From assembly GCA_024220525.1 (NCBI GenBank), contig JAMYWO010000005.1, positions 158,981 to 209,362 on the forward strand: a stretch of 50,382 nt of DNA. Direction: 5' to 3'. Under the pieces are notes generated by a model. It had not been told where the DNA came from. It saw only the letters and a program-made list of their open reading frames with translations, and searched no databases. This stretch comes from Cochliopodium minus. Lineage: Eukaryota > Discosea > Himatismenida > Cochliopodiidae. Of the stretch, positions 4,434 through 50,382 are shown in pieces; the stretch's first letter is position 1, and the number at the start of each line of letters is the position of its first letter. Made by a program: the position numbers and the translations under genes.

Positions 4434-4434
4434 N
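4434..4434. other. Ambiguous base / probable contig junction
   Basis: A single N separates an exon of the secreted GLUG gene from a (TATTTTT)n-rich stretch that behaves as an intron of the TPR gene downstream. The two sides cannot be spliced together in frame. The exon at 4556 needs one carried-over base. A donor GT immediately after GGATTA would leave none, and the reading then meets a stop within nine codons. Confidence 0.6.
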
Positions 4435-4555
4435 TTATTTTTTATTTTTTATTTTTTATTTTTTATTTTTTATTTTTTATTTTTTTATTTTTTATTTTTT
4501 ATTTTATTTTTATTTTTTTATTCCTTTTTTTTTTTATTTTTCATTTTTGGAATAG

Positions 4556-6169
4556 GTCAAGGAGAGCTCATGTCCTCCATAGGCTACTTCGACAAGGGTA
4601 TCGAACTCTGCCAAGACCAGCCTAAGGCACAACACTTGCTCGGAGAAGCATATCTCAACTACGGAGATGTATTACACATGAACCAAAAAAATGTCGAAGC
4701 TGAAGCGTAACCACCAAAATTATTTTTTAATCTTTTTTTTAAATTTCAAATTTTTTTTTGATTGTTTTCATTTTAAATTCTTCATACTTTTTATTTTTTG
4801 AAATTTTTTTTTAAAATTTTTTTTCTTTCAATAATATTTTCTTTTTTTATTATTCCAATTCATTTATTTAATATTTTCATTTTTTAATTTTTTTTATTTT
4901 ACCATAATTTTGATTTTTGTTTTTTTTTCATTTTATATTATATTTAATTTAGATTTTTAATTTTCAAATTTCTTTTTTTATTTTTTTTCAAATATTTTAT
5001 ATTCTTTTATTTAATTTTTAATTTTTAATTTTTTTTTTTTCATTTAGTATGGTGAGAAAAGCAATGCCAATTTTGGAAAAGAAGTATGGAGTGAAGAGTG
5101 AGTATTATGGAGCTGCTTCTTCTAACTTGGCAATGTACATCTGTCTCCAAGCTGATGGAAGAGAACAAGAAGCTTTGGAACACTCTAAACGTGCCCTCCA
5201 AATCTTCACCTCTCATTTCGGAAAAACTGGGTAAAATTAAAAATTAAATGAAATATTTTGAATTTTATGATTAAAAATAGAATTCAAATAAAATTAAAAA
5301 TAAAAAATAATTAAAATATTTTAATTTACTGATTTTTAACATATTTCACTTCATATTTTTCGTTTTTTTTTATTCTGATATAGTTATTTTTATTTTATTT
5401 TTGTTTTCATTTTTTATTTATTTTTTATTATTTTTTTTTTATTTCATTTATTTATTTAAAAAGGGAACAAACAGTATATGCGTTGACAAACACATTGAGA
5501 ATTCTCAAAGAACTCAACGACGAAAAGGGATTCGAAGAACTCCGCAAAAAGTACAACGAAGTGGACGTCGACGTTGACAGCAAGCCTCCTTCTGAAGAAA
5601 CCCTCACTCAGATGTACAACGAATTCTTGGAAACTCCTCACAAGAAATCCTTTGACCCTCCTGGATTCATTCGTAATGAGAAGATGAACAAGGAGCAACT
5701 TTCACACTTTCTTGACATGTGGAAGGGACAAGGTAAATTTTTTATTTTTTTTTATTTTTTTGAAATTATTTTTTATTTTATTTTTTAATTTACTTTGACT
5801 TTTAAATTTCTGATTTTATTTTTATTAATCAGTTTTTTGTTATTTGGTTGATTTTAAATTATTTTTATTTATCATTTTAAAAGACAAATTTTTTCATTTT
5901 TATTTTTTGGTTTTATTTATTTATTTGTTTGATAATTTTATTTGATTTAATTTTCTTTTTTATTTTTAGGACTCCCAACCGACTTTAACTTTATGGACAC
6001 TGTTGCAAAAGAGTTTATGTTGATGGACCAACAAGGGCCTCTCTATGAGGAGAAGAGCGAAGAATACATCAAGAATTTGGCTCTTGAGCAGAACAAAGAT
6101 CAATTCGATGAAGAAACTTATAATTTGTTGAGACAAAAAATAGAAGAACAAAAAGAAAGCACAAATTAA
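4556..6169 (+). CDS. TPR-repeat protein, C-terminal part
   Basis: Four exons, 4556-4706, 5048-5230, 5464-5732 and 5970-6169, encode about 267 residues. TPR-like helices are visible: AQHLLGEAYLNYGDVLH, YGAASSNLAMYICLQADG and REQEALEHSKRALQIFTSHF, the last two as in kinesin-light-chain or TTC-type TPR proteins. A charged helical tail follows, ending in RQKIEEQKEST. The first exon needs one base from an upstream exon (G plus GT). There is no start codon, and upstream lie only T-rich intron and the N at 4434. The missing 5' half fits the gene fragment at 49064-49916: joined, the exons total 1119 nt (372 aa) in frame. TPR identity is sure. The specific family is not recognised, although a basic N-terminus on the other half would suit a mitochondrial protein. 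Confidence 0.8.
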
Positions 6170-6341
6170 ATTATTTTAAAATCTTATCCCTTTTTTTTTT
6201 TTTTTTTTTGAATAAATCAAAGAAAATGAGGAGTTTTGACAACAAAAGTTGTTATTAATCCCTTATCACAAATCAGTTTCCACCAACTTCTTTAATTGGA
6301 ATAATGTATTTAAAGCTTTTTTGTTCAAAAAAGTTTTAATT

Positions 6342-7122
6342 TTATTTTTTATCTTTTTTTTGTGAGTGATCTTTTTTATCTTTATCTTCTACATTTTTTT
6401 TGAGATCATCTTCTATTTTATTATCTCCACTATCTTTTTTGTTACATGAGACCTTATTGTTTTCGTTTTTTTGTTTTTTCTGAAGATTCTTCTTCACTTC
6501 TTTCCTCTTCTTTCTCTTGTCTCTTTTCTTTTGAACTTTTTTCTCATCTTTTTCTTTCAATTGATTAACTTCGTTTTCGAATTCGGCAATTTCTTTCTTA
6601 TAACGAAGTTCATCTTCCAATTTGTTTATTCTGTCATGTTCTTTGTTCCTTGCTATTCTGTATTGATGGAAATTTCCGCTTCCTGCTCCTGCTGACGAAC
6701 TGCTGTAGTTTGTTAATTCTCCTATTAAATTTTAAAAAAACTATTTGTTGAGTAATTAAATGTCAAAAATTTATTTTTTATAGATTTCAAAGAATCTATC
6801 CTTTATAAAGAGAAATAATTTTTTGTGTCTGGATGACATATTTTTAACTTAAAAACAAATCAAACATCTATATTGGAGATATGAAAGCTTCTTATGATAT
6901 GATATTTGCTGGATATAAAGATATTTTTTCATATTTCTTCAATAATTTGTTTATGAATCCTTTTTTTTTACATTTCATGATTATATGATGAATGGAGATT
7001 GTTATTTGATCTTTTCTTCAATATATTTGATTTTTTAAGTTTTAAATGATTTTACCAGGTTGATTTAATACTCCTTGAATGATTTCTTCAGATCTATGCG
7101 TAAATTCACTCATTTCATTCAT
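6342..7122 (-). CDS. PRKRIP1: PRKR-interacting protein 1 homologue (DUF1168)
   Basis: Two exons, 7122-7056 and 6721-6342, give 148 aa. The diagnostic family core sits across and after the splice: NYSSSSAGAGSGNFHQYR, where the family has SSAGAGSGEFHVYR. A Lys/Glu-rich helix follows (KLEDELRYKKEIAEFENEV) and then a basic tail (KKRDKRKKRKEVKK). PRKRIP1 is a nuclear, double-stranded-RNA-binding protein. In animals it is a component of the catalytic spliceosome, where its long helix bridges U2 and U6 elements; that function is inherited from the family, not shown here. The 334-nt intron splits a Gly codon (CCT G | GA GAA). The start at 7122 is the upstream of two in-frame ATGs. The tail after residue 100 is low-complexity Lys/Asp/Asn. 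Confidence 0.85.
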
Positions 7123-7347
7123 TTCAGATGTGATAAATTTAGAGGTAATAAGGGTAAATATCTCTTTCACAATTTTTTAAAAATAATTTAAATTTTCTTC
7201 TAAATTCAAAGAAAAACAAGGAAATAGGATTAGTCAACAACAAGTATTGGTTTAAAAGAACAATATCAAAATTTATGATTGACCTTATGATTGGAAAGGA
7301 AATATTTTAAATTAAATAAAAAAAAAGATAGATACTAAATTAAATCA

Positions 7348-8651
7348 ATGGCAGAGTTCAAGATCATATGTGAGGATCCACCAATTGAAACTATAAAGAA
7401 ATACAAAATCGATGTGAAAATATCAGAACTGAAAGTAAGACCATTTTCAAAAAAAAAAACAAAAATCAAAAATCAACGAACAATAACTTCTATAGTGGTT
7501 CAGAATTCAATATTAAAGATATTAATGAAAATTTATTGTCAATTGAAACCTTTATAATCATCTCAGTTTAAAATATTAATGAAAAATAAGATTATAGAAC
7601 ATTATATTGGAGTTTAGGAAACTTAAATTTTATAATTGTAATTATAGGATAAATTATATATGGTGGTGGGAATAGAAGCAAAAAACATGGTAAAAAAATA
7701 AATTTCGCTGAAAAAAGAATAAAAAAAAAAAATATTTTAAAATTAATTTTGATTGAAGGTACTCACTTTGGAGAAAGAAGAGGAGAAAGGTGTTTCTACA
7801 CCTTTGGATCATGACAACAAATGTTTGAGCGAATTCAAGGTGGTGGAGGGAAACTGTTATGTGTTGAGAGTCAAGTCGAACAGTGAAGAGGATATCAACA
7901 AAATGAGATATATTTTCAACAAAAATGAAGAAGTAAAAAAAATAAAAAATAAATAGAAAAAAATAATAATATCAAATTGAAATGAATAAAAAAATAAATA
8001 AAAGGAATAAAAAAATAAATAAAAGGAATAAAAAAATAAAAATAAAAATAATACAAAATAAAAAAATAAAAAAAATCATTAAAAATAAAATAAATGATTA
8101 AAAATTAAAAAAATGATCATTTTCAAGGTTAAAAAATATGAAATTTCAGAACAAGATTATAATAAAAGGGAAGATAACTTTAGAAAATTCAAAGAGAAAT
8201 TCATAGACAAAAAGAACGACGAAATTTTGATTCACACCAACGAGAAGGGCGCCAAAGTAGGAGACAGATGTCAAGTGTTAAAGACTGGTACAAGGGGTGA
8301 GGTAAAGTTTGTAGGGAAGACAGAATTTTCGGAAGGATTATGGGTTGGAGGTAAAAAAAAAAATTTATTTTCAAATTTTTAAATTTTAAATTTTTTTCAA
8401 AGAATTATTTTAATAAAAATGGTTTTATTTTTTTTCTCCTTTTAATTTTTTTCAATCCTTTTTAAATCATTTTATTTAAATTTTTCTTTTTAGTTCAATT
8501 GGACGAACCTGTTGGTAAGAACGATGGATCTGTTAATGGAAAAAGATATTTCAACTGTCCCAAAAGTTATGGAATTTTCATTCAACCTGATCAGATCGAG
8601 ATTGGTGACTTTCCTGAAGAGGATATCTTCTCTGATGATGAAGAACTTTGA
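7348..8651 (+). CDS. TBCB: Tubulin-folding cofactor B (CAP-Gly)
   Basis: Five exons, 7348-7434, 7648-7689, 7759-7932, 8128-8350 and 8494-8651, give 227 aa, close to the usual 240-250. The order is as in TBCB: an N-terminal ubiquitin-like domain (residues 1-85: [22 protein letters not shown]), a helical linker with the family motif [19 protein letters not shown], and a C-terminal CAP-Gly domain. CAP-Gly landmarks are [41 protein letters not shown] and [15 protein letters not shown], with the typical end GDFPEED and an acidic DDEEL tail that mimics the EEY/F tubulin tail. TBCB works with TBCE to capture and fold alpha-tubulin in the cytosol. The second exon is only 42 nt. A run of AAATAAAAGGAATAA repeats fills intron 3. 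Confidence 0.93.
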
Positions 8652-9022
8652 ATAACTAAATTATTTTAAAAAAAGAATTTAATATTATTAAATTATTAAT
8701 TTAATATTATAATTGAATTAATTTTTTTTTTTGAATGTTGTTAATTTTCTTAATCTATCTCCCAATCACTGTATTTCAATAATTCCACCAATATTTTTCA
8801 AATACAGAGAAAAAATTTTGTTTGAATTAAAAATTAAAAAAATTGGATGTTGTTTATTTAAAACTTCTATGCTTCAAATATGTTCCATTTTGATTAAAAA
8901 TAACAATAAATGATTTTTACGCTTCAAATTTATTTCTGTTGAGAAATCAAAAATTTTATTCAAATTTTCCATAGATTTTTCTTTCTCTGTTTGAAAATAA
9001 TATTAAAAAAAAAAAAAAAAAA
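8652..9022. other. Intergenic region
   Basis: This 370-bp AT-rich spacer between TBCB and the first M6PR/Atg27-like gene ends in a run of 18 A before the ATG at 9023. It contains a short open frame (8731-8913) without initiator context or conserved motifs. Nothing else was identified. Confidence 0.5.
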
Positions 9023-10144
9023 ATGAAAAAAGTAATTTTAGCATTTTTGATCTCAATTGCAATTTGTTTTGCATATGAATGCAAACCATCACTTGGTGGA
9101 AAGAAATATGATTTTACTCCTCTTCAAAAAACGTAAAATCTCTCTTTTTTTTTGTTACAAATAATATAATATTTTATAAAATAAATTTTTTTTTTTTATA
9201 TTCGCCAAATATTTTATAAATCAAAAAAAACTCAATTATCAACGAGAAATAATTAAAAATGCAAGAGGAATATTCAAAATTATTTTCTTTTACAATTTTT
9301 TAATTTTTAAAATAATCTATTATACAGTGATGATTACACTATTGGAAGAGCTATAATTGGTAAAGGATGGGATGTTGTATTAAATATGTGTACTTCTGTA
9401 TCAGAAAAGGCATGTCCTGCATCTGTATCAATTTGCCAAGTTTGGGATTACAATTGCCCAACTGTAGGATGTGGTTCGGCATCATTGGGATCTATCTCTC
9501 AAGCATCTTGGGCATTGAAAGAAGGAGAAGCTGTATTGAAGTTTTTGGGAGGAGATGAAGGAAGAAATTCTGAAATCCGTTTCCTTTGTGCAGCTGGAAC
9601 TGGAGTTGGACAATACAGTTTCACCAATGAAGATCCAGTCAAAGGTAATAAACGAAGATTCTTTAAATTTTGTAATATAATCATTTTTATTTCTAAAAAT
9701 ATTGAAAATATTAAATATATTTTATTTATTCACTTTCAAATTTTGATAATTTTTTTCATTCATTGTTTATCAATTCTTATTTCCTATATCATTGCAAATA
9801 TTATTTTTCATATATGTTTATCCAATCCCATTCATCACATTTCTCAAAAAAAAAAAACAGAATATAACTTTGCATGGAGCACCCAATATGCATGTGCAGG
9901 AGCATCCACAGGATCTTCTTCATCAGGAAGTGGAGGAGGATTGAGCGGAGGATGGGTCTTTGTCATCATCGTTGTTGTAGTCTTCTCTGTCTATTTAATT
10001 GCAGGTATCATCATCAAAAAGGTCAAATTCGATGCTTCTGGTAGCGATATCATCCCTAATAGAGATTTTTGGTGTGGACTCCCTGGCCTCGTTAAAGATG
10101 GTATCATGTTCATTGTCAACAAGACTTGCAGAAGAGGTGGATGA
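9023..10144 (+). CDS. Type I membrane protein, CD-M6P receptor / Atg27-like (copy 1)
   Basis: Three exons, 9023-9132, 9328-9644 and 9861-10144, give 236 aa. A signal peptide (MKKVILAFLISIAICFAYEC) leads to a luminal domain of about 150 residues with eight or more Cys (MCTSVSEKACPASVSICQVW, DYNCPTVGCG, RFLCAAGTG, YACAG). The spacing fits a mannose-6-phosphate-receptor-homology fold. A Ser/Gly linker follows, then one membrane helix (GGWVFVIIVVVVFSVYLIAG), then a cytosolic tail with SDIIPNRDFWCGLPGLVKDG. That tail resembles the FW-x-x-L-x-x-LV-x-DG sorting tail of the cation-dependent M6P receptor and Atg27 family, which cycles between Golgi and endosomes. The role is therefore probably cargo sorting or autophagy-membrane traffic, inferred from topology and tail. 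A diverged tandem copy of almost equal length follows at 10652. Confidence 0.75.
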
Positions 10145-10651
10145 GCATTTTTCGTATTATTCTCCCGCTTCAATTCTTTTTTGGAAAATAATTTAAATAA
10201 AAAAAAAAAGCAAAATTTATTTTAAAAACATTAAATCAAACTATATCTTGACCAACTTCAAATTTGTAAATCCTCCAACTTCAAATTTGTATCACTTGAA
10301 CAAAATTTTTTATAGAATTTTCTTTCGAAATTTAACTTCATTAAATAATCTCTTTTTATTTTCATTTTTTCTAGACATAAAGGGAAATTTCTTTTTTAAT
10401 ATGTATGAAGACATATTTTTAACACGATAAAAAAAAATCATTCTAATGTAGATCCCGTGGGGATTCCCTCATGTTTTCCTCTTCACTAGTGGAGGAGAAT
10501 TTTATATAGAGGTGAATATAAATAAATATTCTTCCAATCCTTACAGTCCTACACTAATATACAATGATATTTACATACAGTGATTCGCTTAATTATGCAA
10601 ATTATTTTTCCTTATGGAATTCCTAAGGAAAAAAATAAAAATAAAAAAAAA
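10145..10651. other. Intergenic region with inverted repeats
   Basis: This 500-bp spacer between the two tandem M6PR/Atg27-like genes holds an imperfect palindrome around CTCTTCACTAGTGGAGGAG (about 10482-10500) and a near-perfect hairpin at 10605-10633 just before the ATG of copy 2. A short open frame (10248-10430) shows no conserved features. Confidence 0.5.
10605..10633. repeat. Perfect 10-bp inverted repeat upstream of start codon
   Basis: TTTTTCCTTA (10605-10614) and TAAGGAAAAA (10624-10633) are exact reverse complements flanking the palindrome-bearing loop TGGAATTCC. The repeat ends 18 bp before the ATG at 10652, so it lies in the promoter or 5' leader of the second M6PR/Atg27-like gene. 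Confidence 0.7.
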
Positions 10652-12235
10652 ATGTTAAAAGTAATCCTTTTACTTTCTTTTGTCGTTTTTTATGCATCTT
10701 GTCAAGACTACAATTGGTAAGAATATCTATATCCTCACGATCATTAAACTCAAATCCATAATATAACCTCGATAGATGTTAAAATATAAAGAAACATGGA
10801 ATATTTATTTAACCTAAATTAGGATCAATATACTCCCATCATAATCATCATTCTCACTCATGAATCAATTATTACTCACTTTAGATCGATATATTTATTT
10901 TTTTAACGAATATTATGACTTTATAAAATTTTTTTCATTAGTTTTCCAGTGATAGAGAGAAAAATGTTTAATTTCACAGGATTGGCAAAAAGCAATACAG
11001 ACTATTATTTCCCAGCAAAGTAAAAAAAAAAAAATTCTTTCAGAGAAATTAAATTAGACATGTCCAAAATTTACAACTTTGTTAGCGGATATAAAATTTT
11101 TACTAACAAATTTTAAACTATTGTAAAATTTTGAACATGTCTAAAATTAAATATCAAATAAAAAATTCAATTCAATTCAATAATCAATTGATATAATCTT
11201 CAAATAAAAAAAAAGATTTCCAACTCAAAATGATGATATCTACATAAACATGTGCCACGGAATTTTGGAACCAAATTGTGGGAATGGAGGTAAACATTTT
11301 TTTAGTTATTTTTTTAATTTTTTTTATTTTTTTTTTTAGTTGCAGGATGGTAAAATTTTTTTTTCATACATCCAAAAAAACATTTTATTGATCAAATCTC
11401 CATATAGTGCCATTTGGGATTATAACTGTAAAGGAGATTTATGTGGAAGGTAAAATAATTAAATTTTAAAATATTAAAAAAAAAATTTAAATTAAAAATA
11501 AAATTTCATTTAAAAATTAAAAATAAAATTTCATTTAAAAATTAAAAATAAAATTTCTTCAATAGTAATATTATTGGAACCACCAAAGAAATTTCATGGG
11601 CGTTAGACGGAGAAGACACAATTTTGGCAACTTTCTATGGAGGAACTGGTAAAAAAATTTTTTAAAAATTAAAAATTATGTTTTAAAAAAAAATTTTCAA
11701 AAATTTATTTAGGAGGAAGATCTCTTCAAATTGCTCTTAAATGTCAAAGTGGGACTGGTAGAAAACCATCATCCATTTAATTTGTTTAATTTTGTTCACC
11801 ATTTTAATCATTATTTTTATTCATTATTTTTTATTTTTTTTTATTTTTTTTTAAAGGACAAGGAACACCAGTTTATTTAGGAACAGAGGATAATGTGTAT
11901 AAATTCTCGTGGAAATCAGAATTCGCTTGCTCCACAGGAACCAAATCAAAATCTCTTAACGGAGGATGGATTTTTCTTATCTTTGTAGTGTGTGCTTTTA
12001 CTGTTTATTTTCTTTTGGGAATAATCATTAAGAAAACTGTGTATCATGCAAGTAATATTTTTATTATTCATTTTAAAAATTTTTTTTTATTTTTTAATGT
12101 TTATTTATTTATTTTAAAGGTGGAAGTGATTTGTTGCCAAACAGAGATTTTTGGGTTGGTTTGCCTTCCTTGATTACAGATGGATTCAAATTCTTGTTCA
12201 GAGGTTGCAGAAAGGAAAGAGTGCAACACTTTTGA
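10652..12235 (+). CDS. Type I membrane protein, CD-M6P receptor / Atg27-like (copy 2)
   Basis: Nine exons give 235 aa, one less than copy 1: 10652-10716, 10942-11019, 11216-11289, 11340-11349, 11408-11449, 11566-11648, 11713-11757, 11857-12051 and 12120-12235. The signal peptide is MLKVILLLSFVVFYASC. The luminal core keeps the same landmarks as copy 1 (NMCHGILEPNCGNG, IWDYNCKGDLCGS, TKEISWALDGEDTILATFYG, ALKCQSGTG, FACSTG). The membrane helix is GGWIFLIFVVCAFTVYFLLG, and the tail is GSDLLPNRDFWVGLPSLITD. Exon 4 is a 10-nt micro-exon that restores V-A-G-C. This copy has nine exons where copy 1 has three, so introns were lost or gained after duplication. Function is inferred as for copy 1: receptor-type sorting in the endomembrane system. 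Confidence 0.75.
11054..11144. mobile_element. MITE-like hairpin element inside an intron
   Basis: The left arm AGACATGTCCAAAATTTACA (from 11056) and the right arm TTGTAAAATTTTGAACATGT (to 11140, continuing CT) are near-perfect reverse complements over about 22 bp. A nested second pair, TTTGTTAG (11078-11085) and CTAACAAA (11103-11110), lies inside. The 90-bp unit lies in intron 2 of the second M6PR/Atg27-like gene and has no coding capacity. It resembles a non-autonomous foldback element, but no clear target-site duplication was seen and no second copy was noticed in the window. Confidence 0.45.
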
Positions 12236-12433
12236 AATATTAAAAAAGAAATAAAACAAAAATTTGTAAAAGAGTTTTTTGTTTGATAACATTTTAACAA
12301 GAGATAGATTGTCTCCTCCTTTGACGGAAAAACTGATAATCCAATCAACATTTGATATGGAACAACATTTTTTATTTTTAAATTCAGTTTAAACAAACAA
12401 AAAAAAAATTTCAAGAATTTGATTGTTTTTCTT

Positions 12434-14896
12434 TTAAAAATTCTTCTTAGAAATGGAACGAATCTGACGAGAAGGATCAACAACCTTGTTCTCCCAAGCA
12501 CGATCATCCTTAAACTCCTTGACAGCAACATTGACATCCCAATCATTGTTGGTCAAATAAAAACGAGCCTCCTCTGTTTTGGAGTTGGTGAACAAGATGA
12601 AACGACGGATGAGCCTGGTTTCACGGTGCTCTTTGGTTTCTACTACGTGAGGCTTGATTTTGTTGTGGGGAACCTTGGTGCGGATCTTGAGGGTTTTGCG
12701 GAGGAAGATGTCGTTGGAGAACAGATTGTTTTGGAGCTTGATCTCGTTGACTGTGGTGTTGTAATACAAAGCAAGACTAGTTTAAAGGAGAAATAAAAAA
12801 AAATTTTTAAAATGGAAAAAGAAAAAATTCATTATTAAAAAATTAAAAATAAATTAATAAGTATTTATAAAAACACCATTTATTTTCATTCAAATGATAA
12901 ATTAATGTTTCAAAACATTTTTTAAAGTAAATAATAAATAAAATGAAATGAAACAAATTATAACAAAAAATGAGTTAAATTGAATTAAAAATTATTTAAT
13001 CAAATATATTCAAATAAGTCAAAAAAATTTAAGTAAAAAAATTTGTTTGTTTTTACCCAGCAAGAGTATCGTCGAGGCTGACTTGGTGGTCGATGATATA
13101 ATATCCGTTTTTGTCGCGAACCAACTCTTTCTCATCTTGTTGATCGAGGATCTTGTTGATGTTCTTTGTGACAGACATGTTGGAGTTGTTGGTGCTGTTC
13201 TGTGAAAAGAGTTGAGGAACGTCAATGAGGATCCCTTTTAATAAAAAAAAAATCAGAAAATGAATTTGTGAAAAAGAAGGAAATGAAACATTAGAAACCG
13301 AAATGATTAATTTGAAATGAAATTTAAAATTAAAAATAAGAAATAATTCATTTAAATTAAAATCAAAAAGAAGATTTAATTCATTTAAATTAAAATTAAA
13401 AAGATAAATAATTCATTTAAATTAAAATTGAAATGAAGAAATAATTAGTTTAATTTAAATTAAAGTTAATTATTAAAAATTATTAAAATTAATTAAGGAA
13501 CAATTAAGATGAAGTTAATTTAATATAGAAAAATCAAATGAAGAGAAAGTCAACAAAAAAAAAAAAGAACGGAAAAATAAAAAAGAAAAAAGAAAAAAGA
13601 AAAAAGAAAAAAAAAAAAAAGAAAAAAAAAAATTTTACCTTCCTTTTGTCCAGAAGGATTTGAATCTTGCAAAACAGTTTTCTCTTCAGGAGGAAAAGAA
13701 AAAGGAGAAGAGTTGGAAGGATTAGGAAGATGATGATTGGAGAGACAGTTGTCGAAACGAGAAAGGATGTGAGAAGTGTTCACATCTTCAATGTGCGCAT
13801 CCATTTTACAACCTAGGGCGTTCTTGTCAAACTCTTTGCAGCAACTCCACTTGGAGAGGGCGGAGAGAGCTCTGGAGGAGACGTATTTCCCTGCGTGGTA
13901 TCTGCAGCTCCCCCTTTTGTTGTGTGCGTCCTTGTAGTAGCCTCCACAGTTGATGCATCTCTTTTGGCCAACGTTGTTTGATTGGATGTTGGTTGATGTG
14001 ATGTTGTTTGAGGTGATGATGTTCCTCTTTGGTTCAACATGGTTGTTAATGCTTTTAAAAATAAAAAAAAAAAGAATTAATTGATTTGGATGAAATTTGA
14101 AAAAGAGAAATTTATATTCGTAAAAAATTCGAATTTGAAAATTCTTTGACGAATTTTTCATTTTCTGAATATTATTTTTTTTAGTATATTGATTTTTAAA
14201 GGATTTAAAGATGGATATCATAGATCAAAGTGATATTTATTAAATTTCGATTGAAATATGTCAGATATAATTGTTTCGAAATTGTTGAAAGAAAATTCCT
14301 TTAAATTATTATAAAAGGTATTCTTTTTCAATAGAATATTTGTTCGAATTAAAACTCAAAGGATTTCTATATTTATTTTTTTTTGATTTTCCTTACCTGT
14401 TTTTAACATTATTATTTGTTCTTACACTATTCATCTTGTTACTCACATTCTTATTGATATTAACCACATTATTCTTTTGGATAGGGATTGGATTGGGGAT
14501 ATTGTTTGTTTTGTAGGGTCCCATTGGCTGCATCTCGATCATATTTCCAGTATATGGAACCTGGATATATACAGGCTGCTGATATACATATTGTACATTG
14601 TTTGGTTGTTGATGAATAGGATATACCAATGGGATCTGTTGAGGAGAAAAATTTATTTGTTGTTGAGGATTGTAAAAAGGCTGAAATTGATATTGAACAA
14701 AATTATTATTGTTATTTGGCACTATTGGTATATATTGTATTTGTGGGTTCATTTGAACAATATTTTGTTGTTGATTCATCATCATTTGATTTCCAACCAT
14801 CATATTCTGATTATTCATCATATTTATTTGATGAATTTGGTTTGGTAATTGTTGATATTGAAAACCTGTTGAAGGATCTTGTATATAAGTGTTCAT
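12434..14896 (-). CDS. CHORD-like zinc finger / LysM / UBA-like protein
   Basis: Four exons, 14896-14397, 14051-13639, 13234-13057 and 12776-12434, give 477 aa. Residues 1-165 are Asn/Gln/Met/Pro-rich with no fold. Around residues 198-250 comes a zinc-binding pattern, CINCGGYY then CRYHAGKY then WSCC then GCKMDAH. This C-x2-C...C-x2-H...W-x-CC...GC...H arrangement resembles a CHORD domain. Residues about 345-395 are a good LysM domain (YYIIDHQVSLDDTLAGLALY, TTVNEIKLQNNLFSNDIFLR). A UBA-like three-helix segment follows (FILFTNSKTEEARFYLTNND, WDVNVAVKEF). Eukaryotic intracellular LysM proteins combine with F-box or TLDc domains; I do not know this combination. No signal peptide is seen, so it is probably cytosolic. 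The start at 14896 is preferred over an ATG 30 nt upstream because of the long A-run directly before it. Confidence 0.75.
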
Positions 14897-19971: not shown

Positions 19972-20012
19972 ACAGAAAAAAATCACATAAAATTAAAATA
20001 TTAAAAAAAAAA

Positions 20013-22322: not shown

Positions 22323-22343
22323 TTTGAAAAATAAAAAAAAAAA

Positions 22344-37150: not shown

Positions 37151-40100
37151 TGAAATCGGATAAAGAACAAAATTGGGTACAAATTCAAATCAAGGTAAAT
37201 ATAATTCGTTTTTTTTATACCAAAATCTCTTAATAAATTTTCTCCAAAAATTCTTTTTCAAATATTTATAAAAATTTTTGCTTCTCTAATAGGGTTTATC
37301 TTCATGGGTCAACTCTTATTTGAAACCAGCAAACTTTGAAACAATCAAGGATTTGCAAAAGGACTTGCAAGATGGTATTAAATTAAATCAGTTTCTGTCA
37401 ATCGTATCTGGAACCAAAATCAATTATGATCCAAAACCACAAATGAAAATTCACAAAATTCAAAATTTGGCAACAGCTGTAAATTTCGCACAAGAGAATT
37501 TGAAAGTCAAATTGATCGGTATTTCTGCTGAAGGTAAAACATATAAATCAAAAAAATTATGAATCAATAACTTAATACTGTTATACATTAAAAAAAAATT
37601 ATTGTAATTATTTTATTTTAATATTTTATTTCTCTTAAAATTATTTTATAATTTTTATTTTTATTCTTGAAAAAGATATTGAGAGTGGAAATATTTCTTT
37701 GATTCTTGGTTTCATCTATTCCACATTCAGAACAGTGAGAATTTCCAAGATTGCATCTCAATTAGGAGAAGGAGACAGTAAAAAAAAAAAAAAAAATTTA
37801 TTTTTTAATTTATTTTAAAATACGTTTAAAAATTTGAATACTAACGAGTACAACTTTGTTAATAATTTTTCTTGAATAATTATAGAAAAGAAAAACGAAG
37901 CACAACAATTGATTGCATGGATGAACACTGTTGTAGAAAACCCACCTTATGAATTACATCTTGAAACCTTCAAGGATGAACCGTTCAAGAATGGAAAAAC
38001 TTTCGGGGCATTGTTGCATGCATATAACAAAGAATTGTGGGATTATGAAGGAATGGGAGATGAAACTGAAGAAAATTTGAGAAAGATCTTTGAAATCTAC
38101 GAACAAAAATTGGGAATTCCTCAATTGCTTGATCCATCTGAGGTCATGAATGGAACTTGTGATGAAAGAGCAATGACTTTGTATTCTTCATTGATCTATC
38201 ACGCACATGCTTCCCAAGAAGAAAGAAAAAAAATGGAGGAAGGAAGATTGAAAAGCGAACAAGAGCATATCATGTCAAGAAAAGAGCTCCAAGAGAAATT
38301 TGATCAACTCATGAACGAAAAGGAAGAAATTGATAGAGAAAGAGAAAAAATTAGATTAGAAAAGGAAGAAGAAGAAAGACGTAGACTCCAATTAGAAAAG
38401 GAAAAGGAGGATTTGGAGAGAGAAAGAGAAAGATTGAGAAAGGAGAAGGAAGAGATGGAAAGACTAAGAGATGAACAAGAGAGACTCAGAAAATTGGCAG
38501 AAGGAGAAAATCAAGATCTCAACAGCCAAAAGAGCAACTTGGAGAAGGAAAGATTGAAAGATGAGGAAGAGAGAAAGAGATTAGAAGAATTGATCAAGAA
38601 ATTGTTGAAAGATGTACAAAATGGAATTTCCAATGAACTCAACCTCAGAGATAAAATGCTTTATCTTTATCAAGCATTGATGGACGATAGATATTCTGAT
38701 ATCGAAAACTTCCTCAGCAATGACAAGAGCGGATCTTCATCTGGTGGAGATTCCAACAGCCAAGGTGGTGATTCCAACAGCCAAGGTGGAGAATCTGGAT
38801 CCTCTTCAAAAACTAGAACTATTCATTCTGGAGACAGCAACTCTAGCGGCAGCGGCGATAGCAACAGCAACAACACCAGTGGTGGTTCTGATGAGGGACA
38901 AACTGGACAAAGAAGCAAGAGAATCGTTCGTACAAGCCCAACTGAAGATATCCACATGGATCTCACCAACGAAGAAGGTATCGAAAAGGAAAGAAAGAGA
39001 ACCTTCGACATGCAAAAGAGATTAGAAAGAGAACTCGATGAGTTGAAGGAAAGAATCAAACAAGAAATTCAAAGAAGAAAGAAAGATGCTCTCAAACTCA
39101 ACCAATACGAAGAAAAGTTGAAAGAATACGAATCAAAAGCAATCGAACAAGGGGAAGCAAACAGAGCTCTTGATATCTTGAAGAAGAATCTTACTGAGCA
39201 CATTGAAGATCTTAAAGTGTGGGTTGATTTGAGTGAATTTGACTTGGACAGCGAAAAGAAGGAGAAGTATGATCCATCTTTGATCAGAAACAACCTCAAG
39301 GACAAGAAATTTGATGAACAAATCGATATCCTTGCAGAACAACTTCAATCTGAAAATGATTCCATGAGACGTGTCTTGCAAATCAAAGATTCCAAGAAAC
39401 AAATCTATGATAACTATGCAGACAAACAAGGGTCCTTGCTCATGAGAACTGACGAAAAGAGCGAATGGAAAACTCAATGGTTCGTCTTGAAAGCTTCTGA
39501 ATTGAGTTACTTCCCGACCGAAGAAAAGAAGGATCGTGCAGGAGGAATCAACATTGATTTCAACTCTAACATTATTTCCGAGAAAAAAGCAGAATTCAAG
39601 GGACAAACAATCTTTCCTCTTAAAATCACTCTTCAAAGTGGAACTAATCTTTTCATTGCTGCATCCACCAAAAAAGCAAAGAAAGAATGGGCTTGTGTTC
39701 TTAGAGGTAAAGTAATCTTCTCTGATTACATGAACAAGATTGAGGAATCTAAAACCCGTCCTGATATCCGTTTGAATAATCTTCTCTTTGCTACTGTTGA
39801 TCTTGGATCTATCAGAATGGACAATGCTCCTCTTTCTAAATATACTGTTGAAGGAGTCTCCAAAGCTCTTGCTTCCTTTGAAGATTTGAATGTAGTTACC
39901 TTTTCAAACTCTGAATTCACTGATGATCTTGCTTCTGTAATTGCTCCATCCCTTAAAACAGCATTCATCAGAACCTTGAATCTTTCTGAAAACCATTTGA
40001 CTTCCACTGGTGCTAAACTCATTTGCGAATCCTTTTTGGAAAACAGATCTGTTGAATCCATTGACTTCTCTGGAAATGAAATCGGAGATGAAAGTTCTGG

Positions 40101-40584
40101 ATCTTTTGCTTCTTTGATCTCTCATAAGAAAGTTTCATCCATCAACTTTGAAGATAACAAAATCACCAGCGAAGGTGCCAAAAAGATTTTGGAAGCTTTA
40201 GTCGAACATCCTACTTGGTCTGTTGTTCAACTCAACGGTAACCAATTGGGGGATGAAGGTTGCAAGTACGTAGAACACTTGATCACTAAAAATTCTGGTA
40301 TTTCTGAACTTCAATTAGCTCGTAATCGTATTTCTGATGATGGTGTTAAACATTTATGTAATGCTTTGAGAAATAACACCTCTATTACTCACATTGATCT
40401 TTCTGGAAATCTTTTGTCTCATACTGCTATCTCCTATATTAACGATTTACTTAAAGATAATAAGACCATCAAGTTGTTGAATCTTTCCGAGAACCCTCAA
40501 ATCATTGGTGGAAAGAACCTTGAAGCTGTATTTTCTAATGAAGCATTTTCTCTCTCATCCTTCTCTTTGATGAGAATCCTTTAA
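37151..40584 (+). CDS. CH-CH-coiled-coil-PH-LRR protein, copy 1
   Basis: Four coding exons, 37151-37194 (plus an A from an upstream exon), 37293-37533, 37676-37777 and 37886-40584, give 1028 aa. Residues 5-130 are a first calponin-homology domain (NWVQIQIKGLSSWVNSYL, KDLQDGIKLNQFLSIV). Residues 132-240 are a second (QQLIAWMNTVVENPPYEL, LLHAYNKELWDYEGM), the actin-binding pair of the actinin/filamin type. A Glu/Lys/Arg coiled coil spans 241-388, a Ser/Gly/Asn-rich spacer 402-481 and a second coiled coil 491-635. A PH domain covers 644-745 (KQGSLLMRTDEKSEWKTQWF, ending KEWACVLRGKVIFSDYM). RI-type leucine-rich repeats close the protein (TLNLSENHLTSTGAKLICES, SIDFSGNEIGDESS, LQLARNRISDDGVKHLCNAL). 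It is likely a membrane-cortex actin linker. A tandem copy follows after 246 bp. Confidence 0.88.
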
Positions 40585-40830
40585 GGAATTAAATATTATT
40601 CTTTTTTGTCGAAATATTAATTAAATTTAAGATTTAAAAATTAACTTTTTTTTCTTTACTATTTTGCTTTTTTTGATATAAGTTTTCAAACCCTCCAAAT
40701 ACTCAACATCTTTTTAATTCTTAGTCTTGTATTGAATCTGAACAAAAAATACTTCATTTGAATAAAAATATAAAAAAAATAAAAAAAAATATTTCCAAAT
40801 TTTTTGAACCTTAATATTTAAAATTTTTAA

Positions 40831-43800
40831 ATGGAGGGTGCTTTTTCATCAGAAGAAAAGAAAAAGAGTCAACAAGAAAGAGAAAAAAATTGGGTTAATA
40901 TTCAGGTCAAGGTAATAATAATCATATGTACTTAATTACAATATTATCAACAATATGTCTTCAAAAAAAAATAAATTTATATATTTTTTTGATACTATTG
41001 AAAATAACAACCATAAAATATAAATATTTTCAAATTTGCTCAATATAACCCAATATATTCTTTATACTTTTATAATGATTCTTTTTTTGTTAAAGGGATT
41101 ATCTGCATGGATCAATTCCTACTTGCAATCTGCCAAAATAGTTCTCATTAAAGATTTACAAAAAGATTTACAAGATGGAGTCAAATTAAATCAATTTTTG
41201 ACAATTATCTCTGGAAAGAAATTGACATTTGATCTTACTCCTCAAATGAAAATTCACAAAATTCAAAATTTATCACTTGCAATAAATTATATCCAAGAAC
41301 AATTAAAAGTCAGATTGATTGGTATTTCAGCAGAAGGTAATGAAATAAAAAAAATAAAAATCAAAAATCTTCAAAAAAAAAAAAAATTATATTATAAAAA
41401 ATATTATTTTCACTTAAAGAATATGATATCTTCTAAATTTCTTTTTAATTTATGAATATTCTTCATATTTCCTTCTAAATCCTCTTTTTTTTAAATAAAT
41501 TTATTTATAGATATTGAAAGAGGAGATATCAAATTGATTCTTGGGTTGATATATTCCGTATTCAGAACTGTGAGAATTTCCAAAATTCAAACTCAATTGG
41601 GAGAAGGAGATAGTAAAAAATCAAATTCATTTTTAAAATATGCTATAAAAATATAAAACATTTTATCTTTTAAAAAGAGAATTTTTGAAATCATTTCTAA
41701 TTAAAAACATATTTATAGAAAAGAAAAACGAATCCCAACAATTGATTGCATGGATCAACACCGTAGTAGAAAATGAGCCTTATGAATTGAAGCTAGAAAC
41801 CTTCAAGGACGATTCCTTCAAGAATGGAAAAGCATTTGGAGCATTGTTGCATGCATATAACAAAGAATTGTTCGATTATGAGGGAATGGGAGATGATTCA
41901 GGGGAGAATTTGAAGAAGATCTTTGAGATCTACGAACAAAAGTTGGGAATCCCTCAATTGCTCGATGTTGAAGAAGTTTTGAATGGAACTTGTGATGAAA
42001 GAGCAATGACCTTGTATTCCTCATTGATTTATCACGCACATGCTTCCCAAGAAGAAAGAAAGAAATTGGAGGAAGGAAGCATGAAAAGAGAACAAGAGCT
42101 CGAAGAGGAAAAGAGAAAGAAAAAGAATCTTGAACAAAAGCACGATGAACTTCTGAGCGAGAATGAAAGATTGGAAAAAGAGAAATTAGATTTGGAAAAA
42201 TCCAAAATAGAAGAATTGGAGAGGAGAAAAAGAGCAGAGGAAGAATCAAAGAGATTAGAAGAGGAGAGAAGAATACTTCAACAAGAGAAACAAGAACAGA
42301 TCCTCGAATCTGAAAGAATCAACAGGGAAAAGGATCAAATGGAAAAGGAGAAGAACGAGGAAGAAGAGAAAAGAAAGCAAGTAGAAAGAGAGAAACTACA
42401 GTTGGAGGAGGAGAGAAGAGAGTTGAGAAGAGAGAAGGAGGAGTTGGAGAGACAAAAGGAGGAAGAAAAAAAGTTGAGAAAGGAACAAGAGAGTCTCAAT
42501 CAACAAATCACTCTTCAGAAGGATTTCATTGAGAAGGAGAAGGAGAAGGAATCCGAGTTGGGAAAGCTTTTGCAAGAGAAACACACGCAATTGATGAATG
42601 AGAAGGATCAATTGGAGTTGAAAAGACAAGAGCTCGAGAAGTCCAAGGAAATAGAACACCAAAGGAGAAAAAGAGCAGAGGAAGAATCTGAGAGATTAGA
42701 AGAGGAGAGAAAGAAATTGGAACAAGAGAAACAAGAACAAATCCTTGAATCTGAAAGAATACAAAAAGAGAAGGATCAGATGGAGAAGGAGAAGCAAGAG
42801 GAGGAGGAAAAGAGAAAGCAGTTGGAGAAGGACAAGAGAAAGCTCGAGCTTGAGAAGGAGAAACTCGAAAAAGAGAAAGAAGATGAAAGAATCCTTCAAA
42901 CAAAGAAGACCAACGAGATCCTTTTGGAGAAACATAGAATCGAAAAGGAGAGAGAAAAGGAGGATGAGATCAGAAAGCTTTTGGAAGAGGAGAAGAAGAA
43001 GCTCGAGGAGGAGAGAGAAAAGTTGAGAAGAGAGAAGGAGGAATTAGAGAAAGAGAAGAAGGAACAAAAAAAGTTGAGAAAGGAGGCAGAGAGACAGAAT
43101 GAAAAGATCACTTATGAGATGGATCTTGAATCCAAAGAGAAGAATACGATCATCGATGAGTTGAAGGACTTTAAGAATCATCTTCAAGCTACTGGTGCTT
43201 TATCCAAATCTCTCAACTCTGAGCGTAATTTGCTCAATGATGAAGTATTCCTTTATCAAGCACTCATGGATGAGAGATATGAAGATATCGAGGATTTCAT
43301 GAGAAAGAATGGAAAGTTGGCAGAAGGAGAATCATTGGTGACCCCTCTTTCATCTGATTCCAGCTTATCATCAAGAAACAAAGGAGAATCATCCAGCAAT
43401 CAAGATTCTAAAGAGGATCAAGAAAAATCCAAAGGAGGATCAGGATCTGGAGAGGGAGAAGAAGGAACTGGATCCTCTAACGATCATTCTTCTAAATCTT
43501 CCACCAGTGGATCATCCCAAGACAACGAGAGTGGATCTTCCCAAGATAACAAAGGTGGATCTTCTTCATCTCATACAAGTGAAGGTGGTGAAGGGGGAGA
43601 AGGTAGCGAATCTGCAAAAAGAACAAAGGTTGTCAGAACTGGAAAGGAGGGAGGAGAAGGATCTAGCAACTCTGTTCATTCTGGAGAAAGTTCTGGGGAT
43701 GTTCATGATGAGGGGGAAACTGTTATTAAAGGAAAACGTGCTATTCGCCATGCTTCTGAACATACCAAATTGGAAGTTTCTAACCAAAGTGACACTGACA

Positions 43801-45407
43801 AAGAAAAAGAAAACAGCAGACAAAGAAAAGAAAAGTTGAAACAAGAGTTGAACGAACTCCAAGAAAAAATCAAACAAGAGATCAACAGAAGAAAGAAGGA
43901 TGCTCTCGCTCTTAAGGAATTGGAAGAAAAGTTGAAAGAGTATGAAAACAAAGCAATTGAACAAGGGGAAGCAAACAGAGCTCTTGATATCTTGAAGAAG
44001 AATCTCATCGAACATGTCGAAGATCTTAAAGTGTGGGTTGATTTGAGTGAATTGGATTTGGACAGCGAAAAGAAGGAGAAGTATGATCCATCTTTGATCA
44101 GATCGAACCTTAAGGACAAGAAATTTGATGAACAAATCGATTATCTCGCAGAACAACTCCAATCTGAGAATGGATCCATGAGACGCATCTTGGAAGTCAA
44201 AGATTCCAAGAAACAGCTCTATGATAACTACTCTGATAAACAAGGATGGTTGCACATGAAAACCAACAAGAAGAGCCAATGGAAGAGTCAATGGTTCGTC
44301 TTGAAAGCTTCTGAATTGAGCTACTTCCCTACCGAAGAAAAGAAAGTACGTGAAGGAGGAGTTGTCATAGATTCTTCTTGTTCCATCACTTTGCTCAAAC
44401 CAGAGGATGCAGGTGAGAACAAGACTGTTTATCCTATCAAAATCAAACTTGAAGGAGGAAATCAGTTTTACATTGCCACCTCTACCAAAAAGGGAAGAAA
44501 GAACTGGGTTTGCCTCTTGAAGGGTAAGATTGTCTTCTCTGAATACATGCATCAAATTGAAGAATCCAAAACCCGTCCTGATATCCGTTTGAGCAACGTC
44601 CTCTTTGCAACTGTTGATCTTGGATCTATCAGAATGGACAATGCTCCTATTTCTAAATATACCGTTTCGGGAATTGGGCAATCTCTCGCTTCCTTCGAAG
44701 ATTTGAATGTGGTCACTTTTTCTAGCTCTGAATTCACTGATGATCATGCTTCTGTTTTGGCTCCATCCCTCAAAAAGGCTTTCATCAGAACCTTGAATCT
44801 TTCTGATAATCATTTGACTTCTAATGGTGCTAGAGTCATTTGCGAATCCTTTGTTGAGAACAAAGTGATTGAATCCATCGATTTTTCAGGAAATGAAATC
44901 GGAGATGAAAGCTCTGAATCTTTTGCTTCTTTGATCTCTCAAAAGAAAATTTCATCCATCAATTTGGAAAACAATAAGATCACCAGTCTCGGTGCAAAGA
45001 GCCTTTTGGAAGCATTGATCGAACATCCTAAATGGACCAATCTCCAACTTAACGGTAATCAATTAGGAGATGACGGTTGCAAACTTATTTCTGATCTCAT
45101 TTCTAAGAATGAAAGTATTGTAGAATTACAACTTGCACGTAATAAAATCATGGACGTTGGTGTCAAGCATTTGTGCAATGCTTTGAGAAACAACACCTCT
45201 GTTACTCACATTGATCTTTCTGGAAATCTTTTGACCCATGCTTCTATTGCTTATATCGACGATTTACTTAAGGATAACAAGACTATCAAATTCATCAATG
45301 TTTCCGATAACGCTCAAGTTGTTGGTGGAAAGGGTCTTCAAAGTGTATTTTCTAATGAGGCATTTAGTTTGATTGGACTTACTTTGACAAGGACAGTACA
45401 CAACTAA
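40831..45407 (+). CDS. CH-CH-coiled-coil-PH-LRR protein, copy 2
   Basis: Four exons, 40831-40911, 41096-41336, 41511-41612 and 41719-45407, give 1370 aa. The architecture, intron positions and phases equal those of copy 1, and exons 2 and 3 have the same lengths (241 and 102 nt). Here the start is an ordinary unsplit ATG (MEGAFSSEEKKKSQQER). The first coiled coil (residues about 253-629) is more than twice as long as in copy 1, mainly through an internal duplication of 441 nt. The Ser/Gly/Glu spacer (676-816) is also longer. The PH domain (982-1084: KQGWLHMKTNKKSQWKSQWF) and LRRs (1092-1366) are close to copy 1. The product is probably a paralogue with a longer rod between actin-binding and PH/LRR ends. 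Confidence 0.88.
42223..43104 (+). repeat. In-frame 441-bp tandem duplication in coiled coil
   Basis: GGAGAAAAAGAGCAGAGG begins at 42223 and again at 42664, 441 bp apart. Both are followed by similar codons (RRKRAEEESKRLEEERRILQ against RRKRAEEESERLEEERKKLE; EKQEQILESERI in both; KDQMEKEK in both). 441 nt is 147 codons, or 21 heptads. The outer end of the second unit is approximate. Confidence 0.7.
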
Positions 45408-45862
45408 GATTGAATCAAAAAATTTTTCATTTCTCTCAAAAAAAATTTATTAAAACAAAAAAAAAAACTATTTTTTCTTTCCCTTTTTCAAAATCATTTT
45501 TTTTTGGATTTTTAGAAAATTTTGGAACAATTTTGAGAGATTTAAATTAAAATCTTTTAAATTTGAAAAAAATGAATATGTTCGGAATCATACTGAAAAT
45601 AGTTAATAATCATAGATCCTTGTTTCCTTTTTTAATTTATTAATTTATTTTTGGAAAAAAATTTGCAAAAATATCAAAATTTGATATAATCAATTTATTA
45701 TTTTGAATGATTTGCAAAATTGATTTCCAAATTTAGAGAGAAATTACATTGATCTTTCTTGATTTTAAAAAAAATGATTAATCTTCAAAAAAAAAAATAA
45801 TAAAATATATTTATAAAAAAAAATTGCCTCAAAAAAAAAACAAATTTTAATTGAGACAACAT
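45408..45862. other. Intergenic region
   Basis: 455 AT-rich bases between the second CH-PH-LRR gene and the Myb-BAH gene on the same strand; several A-runs, no recognisable feature. Confidence 0.5.
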
Positions 45863-48774
45863 ATGAATCTGTAAAAATCATTATTATCAAAGATACAAAA
45901 TAAAATTTTTAATTTAAATTATCATCACCCCAAAATAATTTTTTAATCACAATCAAAAAACCCAAAATATAAATGTTAGTATTTTAAAATTGAAATTTGA
46001 AAAAAAAATAATAATAATATTTTTATATTTTTTTATTTTAGATTTGAAATTCCACCTTCTCATTGGAGTGAAAAGAGAAAGAAAGCATACCTCAAAAGAG
46101 AAAAAAACCCAAATTCATATTATTTCAGATACAAAGATCCAAATGAAGAGATTAGAAAAGGACCATTTACACAAGTAATATTATTTAAAAAAAATTTATA
46201 TTTTAATATGAAAATAATCAATCATTTTTTTTTTTCTTATTCACAAAAATCAAATAGATGGAGAAAGAAGCATTCATACACAGATTGAAAGAAGTTGGAC
46301 CACAAAATTGGGGTAAAAAAAAAAAAATAATAAATTGACATCTTTATTTTTTTTTTCATTAGGAATATTCTCGAGGATGATAGAAGGAAGAGTTGGATAC
46401 CAATGTTCAAATTTTTACAAGTAAAAAAAATGAATAAGAAATTTTAATTGATTGTATTCTCTTTATAAATAATATAAAAAATAAATGATCATTTTGATCA
46501 TTGATAAAATCTATCTCCTCAATAAAAACAAAATAAAAATAAAATAATGCTTTCAAAACAAATTTAAGAATTAAAAAAAATAAAAATACTCAAATTCACA
46601 TTGTTGAAACTTAATTTAATTCTTTACAATTTCTCAATCTCATTCTTATCCTTTGCATAGATATCTTGTATCCAGAGGCGAGATTGAAGAGATCAGAAAT
46701 TTTAAGAAAAAGAAAGTAGTAAATGGACAGAAGAAGCCTAGATTAAGATGGATGGGCAAGAAGGACAAGCAGAATGAGAGGACCTTCCATGATGAATGCA
46801 CCATCAATGGAGATCCCTATCGTGTCAATGATATCGTCTTGTTGAGATCTTCCAACGATATGCCAAGAATTGCAAGAATAGAGGCGATGTATAGCAAAAA
46901 ACCTGGTAAAAAAAGTATCTAACTAAAATATAAAATGTTAAAAAGAAATATCAATTTGATACAAACATATATCATCTTTTGTGATCCTATATTTATTTCT
47001 AATTTGATTTTTAAACAAACCATATCAAAAAATATTCAATTTGATAAAAAAAAAAATAAATAAAAATAAGAAATAAAATAAACTATTAATTTGAAATTTT
47101 ATTTTCAATAAATTTTTATTTTACTCTAATTCAAACAGGAAGAAAACTTTTCAAGTGCAGATGGTTTTACAGATTTGAGGATTTGCAGATTGAAGACGAC
47201 AAAGTAGAGCAGAACGAGTTTGATGACAGGGAGCTCTTCCTCTCCAGCATCTACTCCATCCGTAACTTGGAAGATGTGATCAGAAAGGGATACGTCTACC
47301 AGAAGAGTGACTTCCTCAAGCTTACCACCAAAGATATAGAAAAGTTGGAATTGGATAGCGAATGTGAATGTGTCTTCTACAGTGATAAATACTTCAATGG
47401 ACAGGTAAAAATTTCTAAATTTAATTTTTTTTTTTATTTTTTTTTTGGAATAATAAATTAAATTTCAAATTTTTTTTCATTTTTTTTTTTTTTAAAAAAG
47501 ATAAATTTCAAAGACGACTGCAGTGAAGAAGATGAAGAGCTCGAGATGTTGAAGACTGAAGAGATGAAGACAGAATCTCTGATCAACTATCCCATCAACT
47601 TTGATCTCAAACAAGAGCAACACATCTTCACCAAGAAAGAGATCCAAGAATCTTCTCCCAGCACCAACAAAAAAATCTCCGCCAACAAAAAAAATGTCAC
47701 CAAGGATACCATCTATTGTTGTATCGAGGGTTGCAAGAATATTTGTTGGACTAAAAGGCTTGCGAGCAATTTAAAAAATCATTGGGATCTTAAGGAAGGT
47801 GGCAAATATATCTGTGGCACTCATTATAATAAAGATAAAAAGCAGAAGATGAATAATACTGGCAATTCTTCAAACGGTTCCAACAACAATCATAATCTTT
47901 CGAAGAATGCTCCCATCAAGAAGCGCAAGTTGCCTGACAAGGACGATTTGTGCATCATCAACCAGAATAATGTCATCATCCACAGCAGTGGCCATTCCCA
48001 GGGAAATGGAATCAATGGCATCTCATCCCATTCTCTTTATAAAAATCATCCTGGCCATAATGGCAACCATACCCTCAATACAGCATATAATTTCAATAAT
48101 AATAACTTTCCTTTCAACCATATCCAATCCAATCCCCTCAAAAACAATATTAATAATAATCTCAACAAGAATTTCATCTCCAACAATAATCTCAATCACC
48201 ACAACAATAATACCAATATCAACATCAACTCCAACATTCCTTCCAGTACCAAGAAGATCAAAAAAAACCCCGTCTCTCAGGTTCGTGGTGTCGTGGTCTA
48301 TAAAGATAAGATCGTCAAGGAGAATGCAATTGGTGAGGTAAATTTAAAATACACTTTTGAAATATGTTTTCTTAATTGCAAAAACCAATGAAATTCCTTT
48401 TTAAAAAATACCAATTTGAATTTTTCACTTAAAACTTAAATTGAATAAATTAACTACTCAAGAATTAATAAATAAATAAAAATTATTAATTCACATTTCA
48501 ATTATAGGTCATCATCTTTCCTAATACCACCATTGAAGAAATGAAAGAGGCCATCTGCTCTGAATTGAAGCAAGACTTACCCTTTGATCTCAAGAGATGC
48601 CACATCCCCATTCCCGAGTCTCAATACCAAAAGCTCGCCTACTTGTTCTTCAATGACCGTGTCGAGGACTCTTTGGTTATCGTTCCTTCTTTTAAGAAGG
48701 AAGGTCTTTTTTCTTCTCCGACTGCTGGCCGTGATTTCTTGGGGTTGTTGTCTGTTGTCAATCAAATCAATTAA
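45863..48774 (+). CDS. Myb/SANT-BAH chromatin protein
   Basis: Eight exons, 45863-45870, 46042-46174, 46258-46312, 46363-46420, 46661-46905, 47139-47404, 47501-48337 and 48508-48774, total 1869 nt (622 aa). The 8-nt first exon (ATGAATCT) is inferred from phase and a good GTAAAA donor. A Myb/SANT-like domain comes first (GPFTQMEKEAFIHRLKEVGP, NWGIFSRMIEGRVGYQCSNF). A BAH domain follows (residues about 145-250: YRVNDIVLLRSSNDMPRIAR, KLFKCRWFYRFEDLQ, ELFLSSIYSIRNLEDVI). Then come a short Cys/His segment (YCCIEGCKNICWTKRLASNL, KYICGTHY), an Asn-rich low-complexity region and a conserved-looking C-terminus (IIFPNTTIEEMKEAICSEL, KLAYLFFNDRVEDS). BAH domains read nucleosomes or methylated histones. 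A nuclear chromatin or transcription role is inferred. The family's exact partner is unknown. Confidence 0.8.
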
Positions 48775-49063
48775 TCTTCTCTTTTTTTTTTGTTTTTTGT
48801 TTTTGAGGGAAGCTTGATACCCTTTCTTCATCATCTTTAAAAACATTTGTTAAGATAATTGTTTAATAAAAAAAAAAGTTTGTTTTAAAAGAAAAAAGAG
48901 TTTTTCTTCATTAATTGATCTTCACTTCTCGAAAGAAATCTTTATTGATTTAAACTTTAAACAAGTAGAAAGAAAACCAACTCATCTTGATTGAAAAAAA
49001 GTTTCAAAATCTTTTTATTTTATTCAGTAAATAATAAAAAAAAATTGATCAAAAAAGAGGATA

Positions 49064-49916
49064 ATGTTGAATTTTAAAAGAAAGATTAAAGTATTTGTAA
49101 GACAATAAACATTTTAATAGTTAAATAGACTCCATATATACTATATTCATTCTTCATTGGTCCAATTAATTGATAATTTTTTCTTTTAAAAAAAATTATA
49201 GAAGAATACAAAGATTCTTTTCAATAAGACTATCTGCAAAAAACAAAGCCCAAATTTTTTTTGGACGTAAGTAATTTTTTTAACCCAAACAAATTATAAA
49301 GAAGAAAATATAAGGAATATGCATCTTAAAATTAAAATAATACAAATATAAAGAAGGGATTTTAATTAATCCATACTGATGATTCAAAATATAAATGATC
49401 TCTTTTAAATAATTGAGGGATATAAACAAATAATTAAAAAATCACGTTATCCTCACATTATTAAAAGAAGGAGGCAGAAAAATTAAATCAAATCAAGAGT
49501 TATATACTTTCATTTGAGAAAGATAAGAATTTTATAAAGATAATCCATAAATAATATTAATATTCATTTGGCATGATGGATATTCTTTCAAATGAGAATC
49601 AAAAGAAAGTATTTTGATATTAAAAAATAATTTTTTTTCACAGAAATATTAAATAATATTCAACAAAAAAAAAAAATTAATTTGCTTTTCAAAAACAGAT
49701 TTAAGAGAGGCTATTCAAATAACTTGGAAATCGCAGAAGAACAAAACGAGTTGGGAAGATCATACTTGGCAATGGACGTAACCTCCGACGCCAACAACTT
49801 CAAAAACGCACAAAAGGCCTTCGAGAATGTCATCGAAATATACGAGAAGAACGAGGCCGAAATCGAGAGAACAAAGCTTGTAGAGGCGTATCTAAACTTG
49901 GCATATTCTCTTCAAG
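49064..49916 (+). CDS. TPR-repeat protein, N-terminal part
   Basis: Three exons, 49064-49096, 49202-49266 and 49699-49916, can be spliced to a 105-residue N-terminus. The first two exons are tiny. They encode a basic, Phe-containing leader (MLNFKRKIKVFKNTKILFNK), like a mitochondrial targeting sequence. The third exon encodes TPR-like helices (NNLEIAEEQNELGRSYLAMD, AQKAFENVIEIYEKNEAEIE, KLVEAYLNLAYSLQ). It ends in phase 1 (CAA G|GTAATA). The next exon is not in the window after 50382, but the exon at 4556 fits exactly: LAYSLQ joined by a Gly codon to QGELMSSIGYFDKGI. Exons 1 and 2 are supported by donors GTAAGA and GTAAGT and by an unbroken frame. Confidence 0.68.
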
Positions 49917-50382
49917 GTAATAATTTATTTTTTGTTCATAAACATTTTCTTTATTTTATTTTTATTTGTTCTTTTTTAAAAAATTTATTTGTTATTTTTG
50001 AATTTTTTTCAGATTAATTTATTTTTTAGTTTTATCATTTGATTTTTCATTATTTAAAAAACATTTCTATTTCTCAAATTTATTGTTTAATTTTTATTTT
50101 TATTATTCCCATTTTAAAAACATATTTATTGATTTTTATTATTTATTGATTTTTATTTTTATTTTATTTTTTATATTTTATTTTTTATTTTTATTATTCC
50201 CAGTTTAAAAACATATTTATTGATTTTTATTTTTTATTTTTTATTTTTATTTTTTTATTTTTTTATTTTTTATTTTTCATTTTTATTTTTTTATTTTTTT
50301 AATTTTTATTTTTTATTTTTTATTTTTTATTTTTTATTTTTTATTTTTTATTTTTTTATTTTTTATTTTTTATTTTATTTTT
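49917..50382 (+). other. Intron of the TPR gene, running off the window
   Basis: It begins at the GTAATA donor after 49916 and turns into nearly pure (TATTTTT)n by 50150. The window ends in this tract. The block at 4435-4545 has the same composition and unit and ends in the acceptor used at 4555. Confidence 0.7.

Follow-up and report, generated by a model that had tools for sequence, protein, structure and literature searches.

A TPR-repeat gene at both ends of a Cochliopodium minus scaffold window is very probably a contig-ordering artefact

The window is the whole stretch of Cochliopodium minus DNA that was analysed, 50,382 nucleotides of scaffold C5 (C5:158981-209362; genome 44.65 Mb in 598 sequences). 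It carries the 5' half of a TPR gene at its right end and the 3' half of a TPR gene near its left end, which raises the question of whether the scaffold shows one gene broken by the assembly, two genes, or a circular or duplicated molecule. The sequence evidence makes a contig-ordering artefact of the assembly very probable. The window consists of four contigs separated by N:

1-4433, contig A
4434, single N, A|B join from a secreted-protein gene (A) to B, probably false
4435-19691, contig B
19692-19791, 100-N gap, B|C join
19792-32713, contig C
32714, single N, C|D join from an ankyrin gene (C) to the 3' part of a G-alpha-like gene (D), probably false
32715-50382, contig D

N adjoins the window on both sides; on the right a gap of 5,059 N separates it from contig E, which begins at C5:214422. 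Both break points of the TPR gene coincide with contig ends and N runs (the N at 4434 and the gap from 50383). There are 14 gaps in C5:1-260000, six of one N, one of 100 N, and seven of 1.9-37 kb, and at none of them do the printed neighbors overlap by at least 12 bases. The missing overlap at A|B therefore says little by itself. A single N at a join is presumably the mark of SSPACE-like scaffolders and would denote contigs that the scaffolder judged to be touching; the available portions of the assembly literature on scaffolding, K overlaps, and split genes do not state this one-N convention. L_RNA_scaffolder is described as able to insert 100 Ns (PMC3846640), and it might be the origin of the 100-N gap between B and C.

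The two halves of the TPR gene have the following parts, listed in the order of the joined gene:

49064-49096, forward strand, proposed exon 1, doubtful, 33 nt, GT donor, AT-rich, by eye
49202-49266, forward strand, proposed exon 2, doubtful, 65 nt, GT donor, AT-rich
49699-49916, forward strand, exon 3, 5' half, contig D, 218 nt, one genome match
49917-50382, forward strand, (TATTTTT)n intron, 5' portion, reaching the end of contig D
4556-4706, forward strand, exon 4, contig B, 3' half
5048-5230, forward strand, exon 5, contig B, 3' half
5464-5732, forward strand, exon 6, contig B, 3' half
5970-6169, forward strand, exon 7, contig B, 3' half

Exons 4-7 have GT/AG borders, total 803 nt, and stay open until one stop; the three introns between them are 233-341 bases long. 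Exon 3 is open and ends in phase 1 with CAA G, followed by the donor GTAATAAT. On the acceptor side, AG precedes the exon at 4556, whose first bases, GT CAA, match that phase, and the intron of the gene joined from D into B would be 510 nt. The exon borders, the length of the 3' part, and the fitting phase given in a preliminary description of this DNA are thus confirmed. That description also proposed a 372-residue protein from seven exons. Five of the exons stand, whereas no homology was found for proposed exons 1 and 2 (98 nt together), and the gene has five supported exons, perhaps seven.

Profile searches were compared for the separate and joined halves. The joined protein matches TPR_12 with 59.2 bits (Pfam curated cut-off 30.1), and the 3' half alone scores higher, at 68.8 bits. 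Joining the halves adds a TPR_1 match at residues 62-93 that spans the junction at residue 73, with 25.2 bits, under the model cut-off of 27.8. The true 120-residue junction piece scores 43.6 bits with TPR_12, and all eight shuffled junctions score lower (37.3, 33.2, 32.4, 34.5, 25.6, 26.9, 25.3, and 25.3 bits). TPR_11 behaves in the opposite way, with 15.0 bits for the true junction and higher scores in four of the eight shuffles (15.7-18.8). The scores for the 3' half alone and for the TPR_11 shuffles mean that not all of these comparisons favor the join. The product would be a protein of about 372 residues with ordinary TPR repeats, probably a protein-binding scaffold. It resembles TPR-repeat proteins in its TPR_12 match and in phmmer matches to consensus TPR designs in the PDB; unlike known TPR proteins, its last ~120 residues have no Pfam match above the curated cut-off.

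A DNA search with 4556-6169 returned 206 genome matches. These were rejected as TPR copies because, among the matches listed, the non-self ones cover T-rich intron stretches and not TPR sequence, and protein searches were therefore used for copy number. With the best candidates scored, the 72-residue 5'-half query has one genome match, at its own place (E up to 10), and the 266-residue 3'-half query has four exon matches at one locus (E up to 1).

The end of contig D and the start of contig B share an exact overlap:

50306-50382, forward strand, 77-base overlap at the end of contig D
4435-4511, forward strand, the same 77 bases at the start of contig B

The identity includes the irregular units of the repeat, and the sequence continues from 4512. 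This bears out the proposal that base 50382 is linked to the sequence on the B side of 4434. D and B have no second exact suffix-prefix overlap within 10-399 bases. When the 29 strand-wise contig ends in C5:1-260000 were compared with the start of B, D overlapped by 77 bases and two others by 46 and 44, and in the range of 8-299 bases the remaining 26 of 29 had no exact overlap. The genome has three copies of the 77-mer, at the start of B, at the end of D, and at C38:83481-83557, and its reversed control has no exact genome match. The copy on C38 is a contig start that likewise follows a single N. Since the same 77-mer starts both contigs, either of them could follow D if the graph alone is considered, and the assembly must lack a predecessor for at least one of the two. 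The C38 contig was considered as the successor of D and rejected: it has minus-strand coding beside its start, DUF4460 further in (hand translation), and no TPR exon by eye. The 77-base overlap is not unique, but combined with the evidence from the genes it points to B as the successor.

These data also bear on the idea that two separate TPR genes with similar introns were each cut by their own gap. The third copy of the 77-mer lies beside another gene, which shows that arrays of this kind need not be adjacent to match. Near-matches to an 83-mer from the start of B exist as well: three forward matches at up to three mismatches, one of them B itself, and equally three in the reversed control. 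Against two genes, the halves are complementary and phase-matched, each occurs at one place, a TPR is built across the joint, and the exact 77-mer has no counterpart in the reversed control. Two genes are accordingly very improbable, and contig D very probably runs into contig B as one gene.

The length of the overlap recurs at other contig ends. Nine of the 29 contig ends in C5:1-260000 carry an exact repeat that is anchored at the end and is 30 bases or longer, and four of the nine stop at exactly 77 bases (the left end of B, the left and right ends of D, and the right end of contig 50189-52095), two of these four being the two sides of the same D/B overlap. The other five are 58, 37, 47, 352, and 61 bases long. 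This pattern suggests that the assembler was a de Bruijn graph program with K=77. A K of 77 is among the defaults of SPAdes. The ends of D and B, which are not neighbors in the scaffold, thus overlap by exactly the apparent K.

The start of contig D points to contig E. The relevant feature is:

32715-32791, forward strand, opening 77 bases of contig D, which match C5:230531-230607 (E 16110-16186) exactly and diverge at base 78

A 48-mer from the start of D is present twice in the genome, once in D and once in E. Contig E contains a tandem array whose homologous 3' parts lie near 13229, 14669, and 16110, with a shorter part near 12036. This G-alpha-like array spans C5:226450-231128 with a unit of about 1.44 kb and includes an exactly repeated 352-base stretch. 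The array unit matches the Pfam G-alpha model with 86.7 bits (cut-off 48.8), and no Pfam match was found in the 113-residue peptide at the start of D, so the G-alpha label for D is taken from its homologue in E. The last 352 bases of E exactly repeat E 14903-15254 and carry the same gene start a second time; an unresolved identical 855-base copy would therefore lead from the end of E to the start of D. The end of contig C encodes ankyrin repeats, and a blastn comparison of the last 3 kb of C with E gave a single match, 26 bases long, at a different place and on the opposite strand. E-D is probably a better adjacency than C-D on this sequence evidence, and the true predecessor of D could be a contig absent from the assembly. 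By eye, the frame is open from C into D through the single N (window 32600-33120). An annotator could predict an ankyrin-G-alpha fusion from this frame, which would probably be false.

The preliminary description had offered a 46-kb tandem repeat or circle as ways of connecting base 50382 to base 4435. A real circle or large direct tandem duplication of the form B-C-D-B, with B, C, and D contiguous, would account for the junction from the end of D to the start of B that is present in the sequence, and it is compatible with the chance reading frame at C|D. It requires that B|C and C|D are both true. An ankyrin gene lies at the end of contig C, D starts with a G-alpha-like 3' end that fits the array in E, the SAM-domain gene at the end of B is broken at profile position 48 of 64, and C opens with non-coding sequence. 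No second copy of either TPR half was found in the genome, although an assembly could collapse identical copies. The proposal is not borne out, and such a molecule is very unlikely. The variant in which an extrachromosomal circle or tandem array holds B, C, and D with its junction in the TPR intron and hidden sequence at the N joins has an equally slender chance. The idea that the scaffold is correct, with the halves trans-spliced or the gene genuinely split and its order reversed, has nothing but the printed order in its favor and is close to negligible, since both breaks are contig ends with 77 intron bases in common, as in assembly breaks.

The reading that we prefer is that of misordered contigs. 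A short-read de Bruijn assembly (K=77) would have broken the TPR gene within its low-complexity intron of (TATTTTT)n units, at a 77-mer with a further copy in the genome, and scaffolding would then have set D after B instead of before it. The true local order would be E-D-B, where the scaffold shows B..D..E with strands kept. Long-insert links may have caused the misorder, perhaps because their pair orientation was misread. Pair orientation is suggested by the fact that the order is reversed and the strand is kept: both inferred adjacencies (D-B and E-D) are reversed relative to the scaffold, and the reversed order rests on these two. The constant sum of gap and flank that a pair-orientation error would give was not found in six large gaps (7.7-56 kb, hand sums). 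This cause is a guess, and misplacement by long inserts would fit equally well. D-B and E-D reverse the printed order, which casts doubt on A|B, C|D, E|F, and the gap between D and E as direct junctions. A scaffold error at 4434, one of the options in the preliminary description, is thus very probable, but it probably involves several misordered contigs and not one bad join. Searches for other neighbors of the end of A, the end of B, the start of C, and the end of C found each of these sequences only once in the genome (up to two mismatches).

Genes split over separate contigs, which inflate gene counts, are known from draft assemblies as 'cleaved' genes (Denton et al. 2014, PMC4256071). The TPR gene is likewise one gene in pieces on separate contigs, and it differs from the cases described there in that both pieces lie on one scaffold with their order swapped, so that the break resembles a circle. 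Relocation misjoins of scaffolds are counted in the GAGE pipeline, as described in PMC3846640, and these are likewise cases of contig order at odds with the genome. Unlike in that tally, the misorder in the present case was deduced from overlaps in the graph and from the continuity of genes, with no reference. For users of the assembly, gene order on the C5 scaffold is unsafe at single-N joins, and one TPR gene is likely annotated as two. Contig ends with exactly K common bases, combined with gene continuity, provide a cheap check that is applicable assembly-wide.

Several other features were observed in the same contigs and elsewhere on C5. In contig C, five consecutive open reading frames of more than 200 residues lie on one strand at window 19959-25355. 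The first of them, with coding at 20013-20786, has the look of a secreted protein by eye; no Pfam match was found for 20013-20786 or 22335-23102. In contig D, the open reading frames 37876-40581 and 41649-45404 encode 902 and 1252 residues, each with CH, PH, and LRR matches, and their DNA is about 80% similar across 1.5 kb. The cut genes at the right ends of contig 106982-121488 (C5:121488) and contig A (window 4433) look paralogous, and their peptides are cut near the same residue by eye. Finally, C5:46671-47499 contains a 276-residue open reading frame that, by eye, looks like the terminal part of a retroelement polyprotein.
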